Assembly: GCF_029968015.1 (NCBI RefSeq)
Contig: NZ_JASCIS010000026.1
Span: 1-64,000 of the forward strand
DNA: 64,000 nucleotides
DNA from: Streptomyces luteolus
Lineage (GTDB): Bacteria; Actinomycetota; Actinomycetes; Streptomycetales; Streptomycetaceae
Reading direction: 5' to 3'
Shown: piece by piece, positions 30,295 to 39,126 of the stretch
How positions within the stretch are numbered: position 1 is the first letter of the stretch
Layout of the letters: the number at the start of each line of letters is the position of its first letter
The notes under the pieces: generated by a model
What the model was told of the DNA's origin: nothing
What the model saw: only the letters and a program-made list of their open reading frames with translations
Database searches by the model: none
Position numbers and translations under genes: made by a program

Positions 30295-31341
30295 ATGGCC
30301 AGTTCCGCCTCCACCCCGAGGCCGCCGACGATCGCCGACGTGGCGCGGGTCGCCGGGGTTTCGCGTACGACCGTGTCGCACGCGCTCAACGGGCTCGGCA
30401 AGGTCGACCCGCGGACGCGGGAGCGGATCAAGAAGGTCGCGGCCGAGCTCGGGTACCGGCCCAACCTCCGGGCCCAGCGGCTGCGGCGCGGACAGGCGAA
30501 GGCCATCGCGCTCGCCTCCTCCATGCCGTTCGCCGTCGCGGGCGGGCCCTCGCGGCTCGGGTTCTACATGGAGGTCGCGGCCGCCGCCGCGGAGAGCGCG
30601 CTGCTGCACGACTACGCGCTCGTGCTCGTACCGCCCGTGCAGTCCGGATCCGCGCTGTACTCCGTGGACATCGACGGAGCCATCGTCGTCGAGCCGGACG
30701 TCCAGGACGCCGCCGCCGCGCAGCTGCGGGGGCGCGGGCTTCCGTACGTGGCGCTCGGCCGGCCCGTGGCGCCCGACGAGGACGCCCCCTACGTCGACCT
30801 GCACGGCGGCCTCGTCGCCGAGCTGCTCCTCGGCCATCTGCGCGAACAGGGCGCCGCCCACCCGGCGTTGATCGTCGGCGCCGGGTCCCGGCACTCGACC
30901 GTCGACGCACTCGCCGCGTACGAGCGCATCGCCGCCGAGCACGGCTGGGACCCGATCGTGGCCAGGGTCCCGGAGTCCGGCGGCGAGCAGGCGGGCTACG
31001 AGCAGTGCGCCGCGCTGCTCGCCGACCACCCCGAGACGGACGCGGTCTGCGCGCTCGTGGACGCCTTCGCGGTGGGCGCGGTCCGGGCGATCCGGGACAG
31101 CGGGCGCAGCGTGCCCGACGACGTCATGGTCGTCACCCGGTACGACGGACTCCGCGCCCGCACCTGCGAACCGCCCCTCACCGCGGTCGACCTGCACCTC
31201 GACCAAGTCGCCGCGGACGCGGTGGAGTTGCTCCTCGCGCGGCTGCGCGGTGACACCGAGGCCGCCGCCAACGCGACCGCCCCGGAGCCCCGCCTGATCG
31301 CCCGGCAGTCGTCCGTACGCGGCAACCCTCGCACCCCGTAG
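30295..31341 (+). CDS. LacI-family transcriptional regulator
   Basis: A 348-residue repressor. The N-terminal helix-turn-helix (TIADVARVAGVSRTTVSHALNG, about 11-32) and hinge (YRPNLRAQRLRRG) are followed by a type 1 periplasmic-binding sensor domain (about 68-335). ATG at 30295 follows GAGGAG. The gene converges with the permease-amidohydrolase-TauE operon, ending 14 nt from it. That operon is headed by a nested palindrome with the central CG symmetry LacI proteins prefer, so this regulator probably controls it. The effector would be a purine- or nucleobase-like compound if that link holds. Confidence 0.9.
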   Translation: MASSASTPRPPTIADVARVAGVSRTTVSHALNGLGKVDPRTRERIKKVAAELGYRPNLRAQRLRRGQAKAIALASSMPFAVAGGPSRLGFYMEVAAAAAESALLHDYALVLVPPVQSGSALYSVDIDGAIVVEPDVQDAAAAQLRGRGLPYVALGRPVAPDEDAPYVDLHGGLVAELLLGHLREQGAAHPALIVGAGSRHSTVDALAAYERIAAEHGWDPIVARVPESGGEQAGYEQCAALLADHPETDAVCALVDAFAVGAVRAIRDSGRSVPDDVMVVTRYDGLRARTCEPPLTAVDLHLDQVAADAVELLLARLRGDTEAAANATAPEPRLIARQSSVRGNPRTP

Positions 31342-31355
31342 GAACGCCCCCGCGC

Positions 31356-32066
31356 TCACACGCCGAGCATCAGCACCACCCCCGACACCAACGCGAAGAC
31401 GAGCACGAACAGCCGCATCCTGCGCGCGTCCAGGCGGTGGTGCACGAGGCGGCTCAGCCACGCGCCCAGCGCGATCGCCGGCAGCAGCAGCACCGCGTCG
31501 CCGAGCTCCGCGACCTGCGCCTTGCCCGTCGCGAACAGCAGGATCAGGGACGCCACTTCGCCCACGAGGAAGCACGTGGCCACTGTCGAGCGGAGCTCCG
31601 CCGGCGGGCGGTGCTGGTACACCAGGGCCAGCGGCGGACCGCCCACCCCCGTCGCCGTCTCCGTCAGACCGGTCACCGCACCCGCACCGAGATACGCGCC
31701 GCGGCCGGGCTCGAACGCGGGCGCCGCCAGACTCACCACGGCCGCGAGCACCGTCGCGATGCCCACGAACAGGCCGAGGCTGCGTTCCGGGATCAGCCAC
31801 AGCAGCGCGAGCCCCGCCGGAGTCGCCGCGAGCCGCGCGCCCGTGATCCAGCCCGCGCCGCGCAGATCGAGCGAGGCCCGTTCACGCCACGCCACGTACA
31901 GGTTGAGCGGGATCATCGAGGCGAGCACGAAGACCGGGACCAGGCCGGGGTCCACGATCCCGGCCACCGGCGCCACGATCAGCGCGAAGCCGAGGCCGCT
32001 GCTGCCCTGGACGAACGCGGCGACCGCCACCGTGACGGCGAGCACCGCCAACGTCATGACACTCAC
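31356..32066 (-). CDS. TauE/SafE-family membrane protein
   Basis: A 236-residue membrane protein with about seven segments. FVQGSSGLGFALIVAP and ETATGVGGPPLALVY are the two inverted repeats of the TauE/SafE (sulfite/organic anion exporter) family. GTG at 32066 overlaps the upstream stop (GTGA); an ATG four codons later is the alternative. It is the third gene of the operon and could export a product of the amidohydrolase, for example a released anion, which is inference. Confidence 0.85.
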   Translation of the reverse strand: MSVMTLAVLAVTVAVAAFVQGSSGLGFALIVAPVAGIVDPGLVPVFVLASMIPLNLYVAWRERASLDLRGAGWITGARLAATPAGLALLWLIPERSLGLFVGIATVLAAVVSLAAPAFEPGRGAYLGAGAVTGLTETATGVGGPPLALVYQHRPPAELRSTVATCFLVGEVASLILLFATGKAQVAELGDAVLLLPAIALGAWLSRLVHHRLDARRMRLFVLVFALVSGVVLMLGV

Positions 32067-33487
32067 TGTGCCGTACCCCGCTCTCGTACGCGGGCGCCCT
32101 CCCGCGCACGGACCACCTCCCGGGCGGCCATGGACGTCGGATGCGCCCGGGTGATCTCCGCCCGCCCCACGGCCGAACGCGCCAGCTCCGCGGCCCGCCG
32201 TACGAGCGCGGGGCCGTCCCAGTCCGTCGGCAGGCCGTGCCACATCCGCATCCGGCCGTCGACGAACACGGCGCTGATCTGGTCCCGGTTGCCGCGCCGC
32301 ACCAGCTCCCACGGCAGGTCCCAGGAGAACGCCAACTCCGGTGTCTCGACGTCGACCAGGAGGAAGTCGGCCGCGAGGCCCGCGGCGACCGTGCCCGTAC
32401 GGGCACCGAGGCCGACGGCGTCCGCGCCGCCCCTGCTCGCGTGCTCCAGCCACGTCCAGCCCGCGCCGCAGGAGGAGTCGCCGGTGGTCAGCCCGTACGC
32501 GAGCCGCTGCGCGAACTCGGCGGCCTCCGCGAGCCGGAAGCCGTCGCCGCGCGTGCCGTCCGTGCCGAGACCGAACCGGATCCCGCGCTCGGCCATCGCG
32601 GTGGCGGGAGCGACCGCGTTGCCCTTCCAGGCGCTGGCGACGGGGTTGTAACTCACGGCCGTGCCGGTGTCGGCGAGCAGCGTCAGCTCGCGCGGCGTCA
32701 GCAACGTGGCGTGTGCGCCGAGGAGTTGGGGCCCGAGGGCGCCGATGCTGTGCAGGTACTCCAGGGGCCGAAGGCCGTGCCGTACGAGGGAGCGCTCGAC
32801 GCCCGCCAGGTGCTCGTTGACATGGATCTGCACGACAGCCCCGGCCTCCGCGGCGAGGCGGGCCGTGCCCCGCAGCGTCGCCTCGGTGGCGGCCTCGGGG
32901 ATGGAGACGGCCAGGGAGGCGTGGACGAGCGGGTCGTCGGCGTAGCGGGCGAGATGCTTCTCGGCGTCGTCGAGGGCGGAACCGCCCGGGTTGTCCACGT
33001 CGTTGCAGACCAGACCGAGCACGCAGCGCACACCCGCGTCCCGCGCGGCCGAGGCGACGACCTCCACGTCCACGTCGGCCCGCGTACCGGCGTCCGCGAC
33101 GGTCGTGAACCCGCCGCGCAAGGCCTCGTACGCCGCCAACTTGGCCGCCGTATAGGCCGATTCCTCGTCGAGGGCGCCTTCGAGCGGCACCCAGACCCGG
33201 CGGAAGATCTCCGAGGGCTCCCCGAAGGCGAGCGCCGAGCCGAAGCTCTGCGTGAGGTGGTGGTGCGCGTCCACGAATCCGGGCATCAGCAGATGGCCCG
33301 GCATCCGGACGGCCTGGAGCTCGGGGTGCGTACGCTCCAACTCCTCGGCGGGGCCGACGGCTTCGAACCGGCCGTCGACCACGAGCACCGCGAGGCCGTC
33401 GACGGGCCCTTCGGGCAGCAGCACCGCGCCGGGGGCGAGCAGGAGCGGGCCGGGGGAGGAGAGGAGCGTGCGGTCGGGCTGGTTCAT
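32063..33487 (-). CDS. Amidohydrolase (nucleobase deaminase-like)
   Basis: A 474-residue metal-dependent hydrolase of the cytosine/guanine deaminase branch. The metal ligands are visible in order: DAHHHL, the His and Glu of HVNEH, the His of GAHAT and the Asp of GTDGT. Expected reactions are deamination of a purine or pyrimidine analogue, or hydrolysis of a cyclic amide. ATG at 33487 overlaps the permease stop (ATGA). The neighbouring nucleobase permease supports a nucleobase-like substrate. The last 60 residues are an ordinary helical extension. Confidence 0.87.
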   Translation of the reverse strand: MNQPDRTLLSSPGPLLLAPGAVLLPEGPVDGLAVLVVDGRFEAVGPAEELERTHPELQAVRMPGHLLMPGFVDAHHHLTQSFGSALAFGEPSEIFRRVWVPLEGALDEESAYTAAKLAAYEALRGGFTTVADAGTRADVDVEVVASAARDAGVRCVLGLVCNDVDNPGGSALDDAEKHLARYADDPLVHASLAVSIPEAATEATLRGTARLAAEAGAVVQIHVNEHLAGVERSLVRHGLRPLEYLHSIGALGPQLLGAHATLLTPRELTLLADTGTAVSYNPVASAWKGNAVAPATAMAERGIRFGLGTDGTRGDGFRLAEAAEFAQRLAYGLTTGDSSCGAGWTWLEHASRGGADAVGLGARTGTVAAGLAADFLLVDVETPELAFSWDLPWELVRRGNRDQISAVFVDGRMRMWHGLPTDWDGPALVRRAAELARSAVGRAEITRAHPTSMAAREVVRAREGARVRERGTAQ

Positions 33488-35001
33488 CGGTCGCTTTCTG
33501 TGCTTGCGGTGGAGGCCTCCGCGCGTACGGCCGAGGCTTCCGGGCTTGCGGTCGGGGTTTCAGGGCTTGTGGGCGTCGTTTCTGTGCGTACGGGCGACAG
33601 GCGGGCGGCGATGCCCGGTCTGACGTGGTGGAAGAGGATGTTGAGGACGGCCGCGGTGAACGCGCCGACGGCGACGCCGCTCTCCAGGAGGATGCGGAGG
33701 TTCGGCGGGAAGCCCCCGTACACCCCGGGCACCAGGATCGGCAGCAGGCCGAGGGCGAGCGCGACGGCGCAGATGAACGTGCTGGTGTGCCGGTCGAGGT
33801 CGCTGCGGCCGAGCATCTGGATGCCGAGCACGGTGATGACGGCGAACACGACCATGGCGGTGCCGCCGACGACCGCGGACGGGATCACGCTGATCGCACG
33901 GGTCACCGGCGCCAGGAAGCCGATCACGATGAGCACCACGCCTGCGGCCGCGGTGACGAAGCGGCTGCGGACGCCCGTGACCCGGACGATGCCGATGTTC
34001 TCGCCGCTGGTGACGATGAGGGGGAGTCCGAAGAAGCCGCCGAAGAGGGAGGTGAGCGCGTCACCGCGGACGGTCTTCGGGACGTCGGTCCGCTGGTCGA
34101 TCTCCTTGCCTACGGCCTCGGCGTTGATGACGGTCTGCCCGGTCGCCTCGGCCATCGACGCCAGGCTGTAGAGCATCAGCGGCAGCGCGGCGACGAGGTT
34201 GAACTGCGGTGAGCCGAACGGCATCAGCTCCGGGAGGTTGACCAGGCCGCCGCCCGACGCCTTCCCGAAGTCGACCGCGCCGATGGCGACCGCGAGCACC
34301 GTACCCGCCAACAGGCCCAGCATCACGGCGAGTTGGCGTACGACACCGGTGAACAGGAGGTAGAAGGCGACCGTGAAACCGATCGTCGCCATGCCGAGCC
34401 CGAGGTTGAGCGGGTCGGCGAAGCCGGGAGTGCCGGGGCGGCCGGTGACGAGGACGGCGCCCACCTTCACCAGGTTCACGCCGACGATCACGATCATCGT
34501 GCCGATCACCAGGGCGGGGAAGAACCTCAGCAGCCGCGAGAACACCGGCAGGACGACGAAGCAGAAGAGCGCCGTCAGGACGACCGCACCGGTGGCGGTG
34601 CGCAGCCCGTGCTGCTCGGCGATCGCGAGGAACAGGATGAGCGGCGCCCCGCCCGGCAGCATCACGAACGGCAGCCGCGGCCCGAACTTCCAGGGCCCGA
34701 GCGACTGGATCAGCGACCCGACGCCGGACAGCACGAAGGCCGCGGAGAGCAGATCTACGGTGAGGTCGGCGTCGAGGCGGAGCGTGGCGCTCATCAGGAA
34801 GATCGCCGAGATCGGCGTGGCCGCCATGACGAGGACGTGCTGGATCCCGAAGAGCAGGATCCGGCCGAGGGGGCGGGACTCGTCCACGGGGTGGGGCGCG
34901 GACTCCGTGAGTCCGGGTTCGGGGGAGGGGACGGGGGTGGGATCGGGTCCGGACACGGGTGGTTCCGCTGGTCCGGGCCGACTCTGGCGGGGACTGAACA
35001 C
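33484..35001 (-). CDS. NCS2-family xanthine/uracil permease
   Basis: A 505-residue transporter with about 14 segments. GSLIQSLGPWKFGPRLPFVMLPG and TSGENIGIVRVTGVRSRFVTAAAGV carry the NCS2 signature. A long Pro-rich N-terminal tail and an Ala-Ser-Thr-rich C-terminal tail are extra. I chose GTG at 35001, which has GGAG 7 nt upstream; the longest frame starts with a TTG inside the operator and would place transcription and translation starts on top of each other. It is the first gene of a three-gene operon with overlapping stops and starts. Confidence 0.85.
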   Translation of the reverse strand: MFSPRQSRPGPAEPPVSGPDPTPVPSPEPGLTESAPHPVDESRPLGRILLFGIQHVLVMAATPISAIFLMSATLRLDADLTVDLLSAAFVLSGVGSLIQSLGPWKFGPRLPFVMLPGGAPLILFLAIAEQHGLRTATGAVVLTALFCFVVLPVFSRLLRFFPALVIGTMIVIVGVNLVKVGAVLVTGRPGTPGFADPLNLGLGMATIGFTVAFYLLFTGVVRQLAVMLGLLAGTVLAVAIGAVDFGKASGGGLVNLPELMPFGSPQFNLVAALPLMLYSLASMAEATGQTVINAEAVGKEIDQRTDVPKTVRGDALTSLFGGFFGLPLIVTSGENIGIVRVTGVRSRFVTAAAGVVLIVIGFLAPVTRAISVIPSAVVGGTAMVVFAVITVLGIQMLGRSDLDRHTSTFICAVALALGLLPILVPGVYGGFPPNLRILLESGVAVGAFTAAVLNILFHHVRPGIAARLSPVRTETTPTSPETPTASPEASAVRAEASTASTESDR

Positions 35002-35068
35002 GTTCGGGCTCCGTTTCGGGGATACGGCACGCTCGGGTTCTTCAGCCGCGATCCGGCCCTGGACGGAG

Positions 35069-35134
35069 AGCCAAATCGATTTGGCCAAATCGATTTGGCT
35101 GACAGTATGAGGGAGTGGGGTGGGGAGGAGTCAA
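35069..35134 (-). promoter_or_regulatory. Promoter with a 32-bp nested palindromic operator
   Basis: Two head-to-tail copies of the perfect palindrome CCAAATCGATTTGG span 35071-35098, and the whole block 35069-35100 is itself a palindrome. On the minus strand TTGACT (35129-35134) and CATACT (35104-35109), 19 nt apart, form the promoter, so the predicted start of transcription falls inside the palindrome. Two repressor dimers could bind side by side. The central TCGA symmetry fits a LacI-family protein such as the one at 30295. Confidence 0.75.
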
Positions 35135-35203: not shown

Positions 35204-38200
35204 TCACGCCTCCGCGTCGATGAACAACTCGGCGTACCGCCTGCGGAGTTCGGCCTTCTGGACCTTGCCCATGACATTGCGGGGGAGTGCTTCCACGACG
35301 CGTACGGCACGCGGATGCTTGAAGCGGGCGAGGTCGCCGGCGATGAAGGCGAGCAGCTCGTCGGCCTGCGGCCGCGCGCCCGGAGCCGGTACGACGACGG
35401 CCACGACCGTCTCCCCGAAGTCCGGGTGGGGCACGCCGATCACCGCTGATTCGAGGACGTCGGGGTGGGCGTCGAGGAGCTCCTCGACCTCCTTGGGGTA
35501 GATGTTGTAGCCGCCGGAGATCACCAGGTCCTTGCCGCGGCCGACGATGCAGAGATAGCCGTCCTCGTCGATGCGGCCCAGGTCGCCGGTGATGAAGAAG
35601 CCGTCGGTGCGGAACTCGGAGGCGGTCTTCTCGGGCATCTGCCAGTAGCCGGTGAAGACGTTGGGCCCGCGGACCTCGATGCTGCCGACCTCGCCGTCCG
35701 GCAGGGCCTCGCCGGTCTTCTCGTCCACCACCCGGATCTCGGTCCCCGGCAGCGGTGTGCCGACCGTTCCGGGCTTGCGGGGTCCGCCCTCGTACGGGTT
35801 GCTGGTGTTCATGCCGGTCTCGGTCATGCCGTAGCGCTCCAGGATGGCGTGGCCCGTGCGGGCCTCGAACGCCTGGTGGTCGGCGGCGAGCAGCGGGGCC
35901 GAGCCGGAGACGAAGAGCCGCATCGAGGCGCAGGCCTCCGCGGTGAGTCCGTGGTGTTGGAGCAGCCGGGTGTAGAAGGTCGGTACGCCCATGAGCACCG
36001 TGGCCCGGGGGAGCAGGCCCACGATCGCGTCGGCGTCGAACTTGGGCAGGAAGTACATCGAGGCCCCGGCCGCCAGGGTCATGTTCGCGGCGACGAAAAG
36101 GCCGTGGATGTGGAAGATGGGCAGGGCGTGGATCAGCTTGTCGTCGGCGGTGAACTGCCAGGAGTCAAGCAGGGCGGAGCAGTTGGAGGCGAGGTTGCCG
36201 TGCGAGAGCACCGCGCCCTTGGACCGGCCGGTCGTGCCGGAGGTATAGAGGATCGCGGCCGGATCGTCGGGCGAGGCGTCGAACACGGCCTCGTGGCGGT
36301 CGTCGCCGTCGAGGAGCGTGCCCTCACCGGACACCCCGAGGGTCTCGACCACCATCCCGTCGAGTGCGCCCAGATCGCCGCCCGCGGCACGCTCGGGGGA
36401 GCGGACGAGCACGCGGGGCCGGGCGTCCCCGATGAAGTACGCCGTCTCCGTGTCGGTGTACGCGGTGTTGAGCGGCAGGAACACTCCGCCCACCCGCAGC
36501 GTCGCCAGATACAGCGCGACCGCCTCCGGGGACTTCTCCACCTGCATGGCCACGCGGTCTCCCGGCGTCACCCCGTCCGCGACGAGCCGGGCCGCGACGC
36601 GCCGCACGGTCTCCTCGGTCTCGCGGTACGTGAGGCATCGCCCGTCGGGCTGCTCGAAGAGCACCTTGCCGGGCCGCAGTCGGGCCTGTTCGGCGAAGGA
36701 CCGGTGGATGGCGGTGAAGGGGGCCGGGGTGGGCACGGATGACATCGGGGGTGTTCCTTTCTCGTTCTCTTTCTCCGCGGTGGTGCTGAGCGCGGTGGTG
36801 CTGAGCGCGGTGGTGCTGAGCGCGGTGGAGGCGTCGGCGGCGGAGGGGTCGGCGGATGAGGCTTCGGCGGGGGCAGTGCCGCCTGTGTCGGTTGCGTTGA
36901 TGATCGGCCCGCGGTTCGCCTGGGTCGCCGTAGCCGTCGCCGCCGTCGCCGCGTCCGGCAGGACGTCCCGCAGCGGCCCGCCGACCGCCACCGTGCGGCG
37001 GCGGACATAGTCCTCGTGTCGGCGCTCCAACTCCGCCGGTTCGTAACGGTAGTTGATCATCACGCCGTACGACTGCTCCCACGCCTCGGCGGAGTGGTTC
37101 GCGGGCCAGTCGATCTGCCAGGCGGCCGCCCCGTTGCCCAGGTGGAAGCGGGCCACCGGGTCCATCGGACGCCCGTCGGCCCGCCGCTCGACCGTGACGT
37201 ACCGGGCGACAGCGGGCAGCAGCCGGGGCCGCACCCGGTCGAGGTCCGCCGTGCTCAGGTCCGCCAGCCGCTCCACGGTCGCCAACTCCTCGCTCAGCGC
37301 GTGGAGTTCGGCGTCCGCCCGCTGCTCACCGAGCCAGCTGCGGAACCCGGGGACGGGGGAGAGCGTCGCGAACCGCGTCAGATGCGGCAGCTGCTCCCCG
37401 ACATCCTCGATCACCTGCTTGATGAGGAAGCTTCCGAAGGAGACCCCGGCGAGCCCGTCGAGCGCGTTGTTGATCGAGTACAGCGCCGCCGTGTCCGCCT
37501 CCCGCGGGTCGAGCGCGGGCCCGGGATCGAGGAGCGGGGCGATCCTGTCCGGCATGCCGCGCACCAGGGCGACCTCCACGAAGATCAGCGGTACGTCGCC
37601 GGTCGCCGGGTGGAAGAACGCGTACACGCGACGGTCCGCGGGCCGCACCCGGCGGCGCAGCTCGTCCCGGCCCGCCATCGGGTGCACCTTCTCGCCCCGC
37701 ACCAGATGGTCGTGCAGCTCGGCGGGCGCGTCCCAGGTGACCTCGGCCATGCGCAGGAAGCCGCGGTTGAACCAGGACGTGAGCAGGTGGTGGAAGTCGT
37801 GGTCGAGGGCCCGCAGTTCCGGCTGGTCCGGCATCAGCGCGCGCAGGTCGGCGCGCATCCCGACGAGGGCGAGGGTGGCGTCGGGCGCGTGGTTCATCCG
37901 GCGGAGCAGCTGCTGGCGGGCAGGCTCGACCACGTCGAAGAGGCGCACCAGCTCCCGCTCGCCGCGGGCGCCGGAGTTCCGGGCGTCGTCCCAGCGGTGG
38001 AAGGCGGCGCGGACCTGGTCGGCGTCGACGTCGTAGGTGCGGGTGACGTGCGTGAAGAACGTCCGCTTGTCGTGGTCGTCGAGTTCGGCGTACGCGGCCA
38101 GGGCGCGGCCCGCGACGGCGCGCAAGGAGGCCTCGCCCACGTCGCTCATCAGGACCTCGCAGGCGACCAGGAGGTGGTCGAGCGGGGAGCCGGGCGCCGC

Positions 38201-38284
38201 TCCGGCAGGGGAGGCGGCGTCGCGGCCTGGGCGCCCCAGAGCCCGGAACAGGTCGGTCAGCAGCCAGCCCTCATGGCGTTCCAT
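35204..38284 (-). CDS. Malonyl-CoA decarboxylase / malonyl-CoA synthetase fusion
   Basis: One uninterrupted frame of 1026 residues. Residues 1 to about 430 are malonyl-CoA decarboxylase: NALDGLAGVSFGSFLIKQV, TLSPVPGFRSWL and RFHLGNGAAAWQIDW, where the family's Ser and His act. A low-complexity linker (about 440-513) contains LSTTA three times. Residues 514-1026 are malonyl-CoA synthetase (MatB): ILYTSGTTGRSKG, FFITGDLGRIDEDGY, GRGKDLVISGGYN and the Lys of NVMGKVQK. MatB makes malonyl-CoA from malonate, and the first domain turns it into acetyl-CoA. ATG at 38284 has a strong GGAGGAA. A second ATG (36745) with AAAGGA 9 nt before could still give free MatB. The MatR-like gene is divergent. Confidence 0.88.
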   Translation of the reverse strand: MERHEGWLLTDLFRALGRPGRDAASPAGAAPGSPLDHLLVACEVLMSDVGEASLRAVAGRALAAYAELDDHDKRTFFTHVTRTYDVDADQVRAAFHRWDDARNSGARGERELVRLFDVVEPARQQLLRRMNHAPDATLALVGMRADLRALMPDQPELRALDHDFHHLLTSWFNRGFLRMAEVTWDAPAELHDHLVRGEKVHPMAGRDELRRRVRPADRRVYAFFHPATGDVPLIFVEVALVRGMPDRIAPLLDPGPALDPREADTAALYSINNALDGLAGVSFGSFLIKQVIEDVGEQLPHLTRFATLSPVPGFRSWLGEQRADAELHALSEELATVERLADLSTADLDRVRPRLLPAVARYVTVERRADGRPMDPVARFHLGNGAAAWQIDWPANHSAEAWEQSYGVMINYRYEPAELERRHEDYVRRRTVAVGGPLRDVLPDAATAATATATQANRGPIINATDTGGTAPAEASSADPSAADASTALSTTALSTTALSTTAEKENEKGTPPMSSVPTPAPFTAIHRSFAEQARLRPGKVLFEQPDGRCLTYRETEETVRRVAARLVADGVTPGDRVAMQVEKSPEAVALYLATLRVGGVFLPLNTAYTDTETAYFIGDARPRVLVRSPERAAGGDLGALDGMVVETLGVSGEGTLLDGDDRHEAVFDASPDDPAAILYTSGTTGRSKGAVLSHGNLASNCSALLDSWQFTADDKLIHALPIFHIHGLFVAANMTLAAGASMYFLPKFDADAIVGLLPRATVLMGVPTFYTRLLQHHGLTAEACASMRLFVSGSAPLLAADHQAFEARTGHAILERYGMTETGMNTSNPYEGGPRKPGTVGTPLPGTEIRVVDEKTGEALPDGEVGSIEVRGPNVFTGYWQMPEKTASEFRTDGFFITGDLGRIDEDGYLCIVGRGKDLVISGGYNIYPKEVEELLDAHPDVLESAVIGVPHPDFGETVVAVVVPAPGARPQADELLAFIAGDLARFKHPRAVRVVEALPRNVMGKVQKAELRRRYAELFIDAEA
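36745..36760 (-). promoter_or_regulatory. Internal ribosome site and start for the MatB half
   Basis: AAAGGA (complement of 36755-36760) stands 9 nt before an in-frame ATG (36745-36743) that begins MSSVPTPAPF, where a normal MatB would start. It looks like the surviving start signal of a once separate gene. Confidence 0.55.
36777..36821. repeat. 15-bp tandem repeats in the fusion linker
   Basis: Three perfect copies of GCGGTGGTGCTGAGC (plus-strand reading) plus a partial fourth encode the LSTTA repeats. They sit in the stretch between the decarboxylase and synthetase domains, where the stop codon of the first gene would be expected. Confidence 0.85.
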
Positions 38285-38342: not shown

Positions 38343-38369
38343 ATATACATCGCGTACTCTGATGTATAT
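38343..38369. promoter_or_regulatory. Inverted repeat between matAB fusion and the GntR gene
   Basis: ATATACAT (38343-38350) and ATGTATAT (38362-38369) are perfectly inverted across 11 nt. MatR of rhizobia, a GntR protein, uses a TTGTATACAA-type site, so these A/T-rich arms are a good candidate operator for the divergent pair. This is the most A/T-rich spot in the region. Confidence 0.6.
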
Positions 38370-38448
38370 AACGTAGAAACCGTAGGACACATGAACCGGA
38401 TCCGCCACCCCTGGAACAGCCCGATAACGTGAGCGCTCGGAGGTGCCC

Positions 38449-39126
38449 ATGGCTCGAGTCCCGGAATCACAGCGCGTGCGGGACGCGCTGGAGAACGCCG
38501 TCGTTGACGGCCGCTACCGCCCCGGCGAACGCCTCGACCCCGCCGAGCTGGAGCGGGAGTTCGGCTGCTCCCGCACGCCGGTCCGCGAGGCCCTCCAGGA
38601 CCTGCAGCGCTCGGGGCTCGTACAGATCCGCCCCAAGCAGGGCACATACGTCACGGAGTTGAGCGTTCCGGAACTGGCGGAACGCTTCGAGGTGATGGCC
38701 GAACTGGAAGGCATGGCGGCACGGCTCTCCGCGCGCCGCATCGAGCGCCGCACCCTCGACGAGCTGGAGGACGCCCTCCGCGAGTGCGAGACCCACGCGG
38801 GCGCCGGCGACGCGGACCGCTACTACTACGCCAACGCCCGCTTCCACGACACCATCTACGGCGCCTGCGGCAACGCCTACCTGCGGCAGCAGGCGCACAC
38901 GCTCCAGCGGGCCCTGCAGCCCTACCGGCGCCTGCAACTGCGCGTCCCCGACCGTATGCGACGCTCCCTGGCCGAACACCGCGTGATCGCCGCGGCCATC
39001 ACCGACGGCGACGAGGAGGTCGCGGAGAACACCGCCCGTGACCATGTGCTCGTCCAGGTCAAGGAGTTCAGCCATCTCGTACGGGCGTGGAACCAGGTGC
39101 GGGAGCCGGTGCGGCAGGGCGGATGA
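38449..39126 (+). CDS. GntR/FadR-family regulator, MatR-like
   Basis: A 225-residue regulator. The winged helix (LDPAELEREFGCSRTPVREALQDLQRSGLV, about 27-56) is followed by an all-helical FCD ligand domain with metal-type His residues (ANARFHDTIYGACGN; LAEHRVIAAAI). ATG at 38449 lies 6 nt after GGAGG; an in-frame GTG at 38443 abuts that site and was rejected. It is divergent from the malonate fusion gene with a shared inverted repeat, the arrangement of matR and matABC. The effector is probably malonate. Confidence 0.88.
   Translation: MARVPESQRVRDALENAVVDGRYRPGERLDPAELEREFGCSRTPVREALQDLQRSGLVQIRPKQGTYVTELSVPELAERFEVMAELEGMAARLSARRIERRTLDELEDALRECETHAGAGDADRYYYANARFHDTIYGACGNAYLRQQAHTLQRALQPYRRLQLRVPDRMRRSLAEHRVIAAAITDGDEEVAENTARDHVLVQVKEFSHLVRAWNQVREPVRQGG

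Follow-up and report, generated by a model that had tools for sequence, protein, structure and literature searches.

In the 64,000-nucleotide stretch of Streptomyces luteolus DNA analyzed here (RefSeq assembly GCF_029968015.1, positions 1 to 64,000 of contig NZ_JASCIS010000026.1; hereafter, the window), malonyl-CoA decarboxylase (MatA) and malonyl-CoA synthetase (MatB) are encoded by a single gene, matAB, located at 35204..38284 on the reverse strand. The question raised by this locus is whether such a gene yields one protein or two. Our preferred answer, to which we assign a probability of roughly 0.72 on the strength of sequence comparisons, is that matAB is a dual-product gene, situated in a GntR-regulated malonate operon, that gives rise to both a fused MatAB protein and free MatB. 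Ribosomes initiating at the matA start codon would produce a 111-kDa bifunctional MatAB, in which the MatB part would convert malonate, ATP, and CoA into malonyl-CoA, and the MatA part, carried on a flexible linker, would decarboxylate malonyl-CoA to acetyl-CoA. Ribosomes initiating at an inner site would produce free 55-kDa MatB, so that the synthetase would be in excess over the decarboxylase. We infer the synthesis of both proteins, and a ratio between them, and tethering may bring a kinetic benefit, perhaps through channelling. MatAB could also serve as a compact malonate-to-acetyl-CoA enzyme for engineering.

The matAB gene and its product

Read from 38284 to 35204, the matAB frame comprises 1026 codons without a stop, and its 1026-residue product matches four Pfam domains, all well over cut-off: MCD_N (residues 84–172), MCD (175–415), AMP-binding (530–881), and AMP-binding_C (932–1007). 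The earlier claim, made in a sequence-only reading of this DNA, that one frame covers both enzymes was therefore borne out. The MatA part, comprising MCD_N and MCD (37040..38035, reverse strand), belongs to the MatA family by its Pfam scores (77.8 bits against a cut-off of 22.4 for MCD_N, and 251 bits against 23.2 for MCD), matches the solved malonyl-CoA decarboxylase 4ksa in sequence at 318 bits, and is the only MCD match returned from the host genome by a profile search. Its Ser309 and His381 are invariant in all 24 fused proteins described below and align, by an offset derived by hand from the alignment, with Ser329 and His423 of human MCD, to which, under that numbering, we presume a catalytic role. 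The MatB half, at 742.7 bits (cut-off 558), is a member of the NCBIfam malonyl-CoA synthase family, and its TSGTTG stretch (681–686) and Lys1007, presumably functional in the synthetase, are likewise invariant in the fused proteins (n = 24). Malonate is the predicted substrate of this half. We could confirm that MatAB comprises, by domain, a complete MatA and a complete MatB in one genuine frame. PDB entries 4fuq and 3nyq, which we take to be the MatB proteins of Rhodopseudomonas palustris and S. coelicolor, respectively, are malonyl-CoA synthetases, as the MatB part is predicted to be, but neither is fused to MatA; the MatB part is nearer to 4fuq (609 bits) than to 3nyq (318 bits).

Nested within matAB is a matB frame of 513 amino acids (35204..36745, reverse strand; NCBIfam match), which begins with an ATG codon at residue 514 (36743..36745, reverse strand), assigned from the translation and from the codon counts given below. 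The two products had been expected at 108 and 55 kDa; the computed mass of the predicted free MatB, 55.0 kDa from the inner ATG, agrees with the second figure, whilst that of the fused protein is 111.3 kDa rather than 108.

The two halves are joined by a linker of 83 residues (431–513; 36746..36994, reverse strand) that is predicted to be disordered. An AlphaFold model, made from the 24 fused sequences, shows two folded parts separated by a linker of low pLDDT (23–33 over about residues 451–520). Mean pLDDT was 72.7 for the best model and 54.7–72.4 for the other four, short stretches of the synthetase also fell below 50, and pTM was 0.49; given these low pLDDT and pTM values, the relative placement of the MatA and MatB halves in the model is uninformative.

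Across the 24 fused genes, the linkers, which are rich in A, T, P, S, and D when pooled, have no fixed sequence and range from 16 to 83 amino acids in length. Their 831 codons contain no stops in the fused frame, and five and three in the other two frames. The junction in the window had been described as filled by three 15-bp repeats. Instead, a repeat search and comparison with relatives revealed 3.5 exact copies (36776..36828, reverse strand), which occupy 53 of the 249 linker bases and are lineage-specific. The closest relative, Streptomyces sp. LHD-70 (L026; MatA 95% identical), lacks the 15-bp repeat and carries a 12-bp repeat elsewhere in its linker, and the linker of L027 contains 6-bp repeats. 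Since both have other repeats, we regard the repeats as local clutter, and the possibility that the 15-bp repeats constitute a functional element was rejected because the nearest relative carries a different one.

Fused and separate genes among relatives

MCD was sought with the Pfam model in mutually overlapping samples of genomes from the same genus (295 genomes, 8 matches), family (249, 5), order (293, 8), and phylum (396, 5), as well as in the family of G897, the genome of locus L041 (301, 3), the family of G899, that of L047 (120, 9), and the class of G900, that of L048 (Gemmobacter; 142, 46). A peptide-pattern search of genome contigs supplied 32 loci, with a bias toward close relatives, since the peptides came from the MatA of the window. 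Once copies of loci that had been fetched twice were excluded from the counts, there were 40 loci in which matA is followed by matB, 38 of them actinobacterial and two from the Gemmobacter class. Loci having matA with no adjacent matB match were dropped (L025, L061, and L062 from the same phylum; L045, at a contig end; L119; L122; the Eremiobacterota/WPS-2 loci L051–L057; and all but one of L080–L109, from the Gemmobacter class).

Twenty-four of the 38 actinobacterial pairs are fused in frame and 14 are separate, so that the survey for both forms proposed by the sequence-only reading did find both. Fusions occur in Streptomyces, Mycobacterium/Mycolicibacterium, Rhodococcus, and Zhihengliuella, among others. 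Among Pfam-model matches with an adjacent matB, 14/23 are fused by hand count, or 12/21 after removal of the two fusion-carrying genomes on which searches were centered. Both Gemmobacter-class pairs (L048 and L106), which are included in the tree but lie outside the 38, are separate. These data confirm that the MatAB fusion is real and common to many actinobacterial relatives. That it is unique to the window was rejected on the strength of the 24 fused loci. That it is general to all MatA was rejected for the class of L048, where 46/142 genomes have MCD and, among the frames listed, none exceeds 750 amino acids except one of 1218 (L091/L122), in which the matA frame ends 94 bases past the match.

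A maximum-likelihood tree was made from MatA and MatB (LG+G4; 40 rows), in which 11 of the 37 inner branches are weakly supported and caution is called for where L121 and L112, both long rows, come together. On this tree, the fused/separate label changes eight times (bootstrap range 7–9), four of these changes being forced by well-supported branches alone; shuffled labels gave a mean of 12.8 changes, and a value as low as that observed in 1 of 500 shuffles. Over the 38 actinobacterial rows there are seven changes. Even close sisters differ: L041 is fused and L043 is separate, the latter being still in frame but with a TAG stop. There are also uniformly fused groups, namely the clade of four, L115–L118, and the pair L047 and L120. 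The tree is unrooted, so each change may be either a gain or a loss of the fusion.

Frame retention was measured on the actinobacterial tree as the distance between a fixed MatA column and a fixed MatB column. The junction has undergone at least 32 length changes versus eight frame changes. When frames were shuffled, the mean was 11.3 changes and the minimum in 300 shuffles was nine. Random indels, simulated at a rate giving ~32 length changes, produced a mean of 16.3 frame changes, and none of 300 runs had as few as eight; when the rate was set to the minimum used (~25 length changes), 1.3% of runs had eight or fewer. The simulation is of simple design, and its outcome depends upon the share of indels that are multiples of three, the probability of eight or fewer frame changes being 0.003 at 60%, 0.147 at 80%, and 0.757 at 90%. 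Because many repeat units in the linkers are multiples of three, frame retention may be partly mutational. Relative to simulated random indels, the frame across this hypervariable linker is preserved more frequently.

The inner ribosome site and rival readings

The inner Shine–Dalgarno site of matB, GAGAAAGGAAC (36753..36763, reverse strand), was assigned from its pairing energy and codon counts and is retained at the DNA level within the fused frame. The start and ribosome site of the second gene had been said to survive inside the fusion, and so they do: both ATG 514 and GAGAAAGGAAC are intact, with the codons held against the usage of the gene. Of the 24 fused genes, all but L042 encode a glycine at the site, and the codon used is GGA in 23/23. 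Across the aligned cores of these genes, by comparison, GGA makes up 9.9% of 1846 glycine codons, and among 48 conserved glycine columns, to which the same tree applies, no single column exceeds 33%. Similarly, the arginine codon is AGA in 13/13 codons from 12 loci (0.8% of 1897 in the cores; at most 4% in any of 33 conserved arginine columns), and the threonine codon is ACA in 14/25 (3.3% of 1200 in the cores). GC content at third positions is lower in the codons of the site (0.46) than in the linkers (0.86) or the MatA cores (0.89).

In this first count, the start positions had been chosen partly by ribosome-site score. In a recount that ignored the site and took the nearest upstream ATG, or else GTG, as the start, the same start was obtained in 22/24 genes (L041 and L125 differ), the inner starts being 19 ATG and five GTG. 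At the inner site, GGA was then found in 21/21, AGA in 11/12, and ACA in 13/25, and in the remaining linker GGA accounted for 3/65 glycines and AGA for 3/45 arginines. As GGA and AGA depart from the GC-rich codon usage expected if only the fusion mattered, the counts support the view that the inner site is held at the DNA level in fused genes and is not a relic.

Median pairing with the 16S tail in the actinobacterial loci is −10.35 kcal/mol in fused genes (n = 24) and −10.4 kcal/mol in separate genes (n = 14). For the median fused gene, pairing of this strength is reached at roughly 3% of codon positions, and only 5/24 fused genes have no other internal ATG or GTG with equally strong pairing. 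The RNA at the inner site is only mildly more accessible, with 12% of positions as open in the median fused gene and 21% in separate genes, which is a weak signal. The competing internal starts and the weak accessibility signal, together with the low pairing energies of fused L042 and L124 given below and the absence of MadLM genes from the window, weigh against a dual-product gene. In four loci with separate genes (L029, L064, L111, and L126), the TGA stop of matA and the ribosome site of matB share bases (TGAGAGAGG); read in another frame, this DNA passes through without a stop, as in the fused L040.

Bacterial in-frame inner starts that give more than one protein per frame are described for infB, clpA, and speA (PMC13245402), and numerous isoform starts have been reported in M. 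tuberculosis (PMC9094748). The inner starts of infB, clpA, and speA yield an N-terminally shortened form of one protein, whereas that of matAB is predicted to yield a whole second enzyme. We found no description of a MatA–MatB fusion in the largely open-access literature on malonate enzymes, gene fusions, and inner initiation, as covered by titles and the beginnings of abstracts among the matches listed. The inner-start mechanism itself would be of a known kind; what would be unusual is that the inner product is a whole enzyme, that it is encoded by a separate gene in sister lineages, and that switching between the two states has been repeated. More generally, single-protein annotations may conceal a second product.

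Other readings of the locus have to be weighed against a dual-product gene. The genome is a draft in 113 contigs, so one might suspect that a sequencing or assembly artefact deleted a stop; a missed stop is very unlikely, to the point of being scarcely credible, because the in-frame fusion is shared by 24/38 actinobacterial pairs from different species. It is also highly improbable that the fusion is the sole product and the inner Shine–Dalgarno a relic of the separate gene. The occurrence of the separate form in sister lineages, as well as the weak inner sites of fused L042 (−6.4 kcal/mol) and L124 (−6.7 kcal/mol), would suit a relic, but its codons would be expected to drift to common synonymous ones, and GGA and AGA have instead been held across distant lineages. 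A third reading, that the Shine–Dalgarno-like stretch serves as an elongation pause that allows MatA to fold before MatB is made, draws on its position between two folded parts. We consider it improbable, since the stretch is accompanied by a start codon at a suitable spacing, chosen at the same place without regard to the site in all but two fused genes, and in most actinobacterial loci with separate genes that motif likewise stands ahead of matB.

The main rival to a dual-product gene is a neutral fusion, in which inner initiation would make nearly all of the working MatB, MatA would carry a harmless C-terminal MatB following loss of its stop, and small indels in the rapidly evolving linker would toggle between the states. 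The seven state changes on the 38-locus actinobacterial tree, the equal strength of the inner site in fused and separate states, and the variable linker are all consistent with such a history. Frame retention argues against it, as judged from the eight frame changes versus at least 32 length changes and from the simulations, as do the uniformly fused clade L115–L118 and the fused pair L047/L120, and we consider a neutral fusion unlikely. To the fuller version of the dual-product reading, in which both states would be under selection, we would give even odds: the MatAB frame would be kept open across a hypervariable, repeat-rich linker, the inner site would be kept for free MatB, thereby setting the excess of synthetase over tethered decarboxylase, and small indels in the linker would have switched lineages to and from a two-gene operon many times. 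Gene fusions are usually taken as all-or-nothing proof of joint function; fused and separate sister forms with the same inner site provide a natural series for testing the benefit of fusion in cases in which free MatB may also be produced.

Regulator, transporters, and neighboring genes

The rhizobial matRABC malonate operon of R. leguminosarum bv. trifolii (PMC5845375) resembles the window in its divergent GntR regulator, the order of matA and matB, the enzymes, and the pathway. On the R. leguminosarum TA1 plasmid, matA and matB are two genes with a 4-base overlap, as the sequence-only reading had held for the rhizobial system, whereas the window has one frame. A divergent gene encoding a MatR-like GntR/FCD regulator (38443..39126, forward strand; Pfam) lies beside matA in the window, as expected of a mat-type operon, and a GntR homologue adjoins matA in 36/38 actinobacterial loci, with none found in L032 and L060. 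The divergent promoter region between matA and the GntR gene contains a palindrome, ATATACATC-N9-GATGTATAT (38343..38369), which is a candidate operator; outside the window, an ATACATC-type palindrome is the best upstream match in 13 of 39 loci. A scan of the region for sigma-70-type promoters found none, and one terminator-like site was detected, compared with 0.7 in shuffled sequence.

TA1 has a further gene downstream that is listed as hypothetical and that we take to encode MatC, whereas a MadM gene is present in 28/37 actinobacterial loci with room for it (20/23 fused and 8/14 separate), directly 3′ of matB wherever its position was listed. The identity of MadL and MadM was checked on four proteins. 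Neither was found in the window, where the malonate operon is thus without a MadLM-type version of the transporter gene expected in such a cluster. A genome-wide search for MadM gave no match in the host but also none in the control genomes, so that the host may still carry the gene. The clade formed by the window, L026, and L027 lacks madLM, and matAB is followed instead by genes for an NCS2-type permease and an amidohydrolase (Amidohydro_1), which in the window lie at 32063–35088. Two tandem perfect palindromes, CCAAATCGATTTGG, are located ahead of these genes (35071–35098). A LacI-family gene at 30295–31341 might, as a guess, encode their regulator. Elsewhere in the same genome there is a second, separate malonyl-CoA ligase gene (L003; G000:C50:66707-68206), the product of which is nearest to 3nyq (749 bits); as the MatB part of MatAB is nearer to 4fuq, the host genome has both kinds of MatB.
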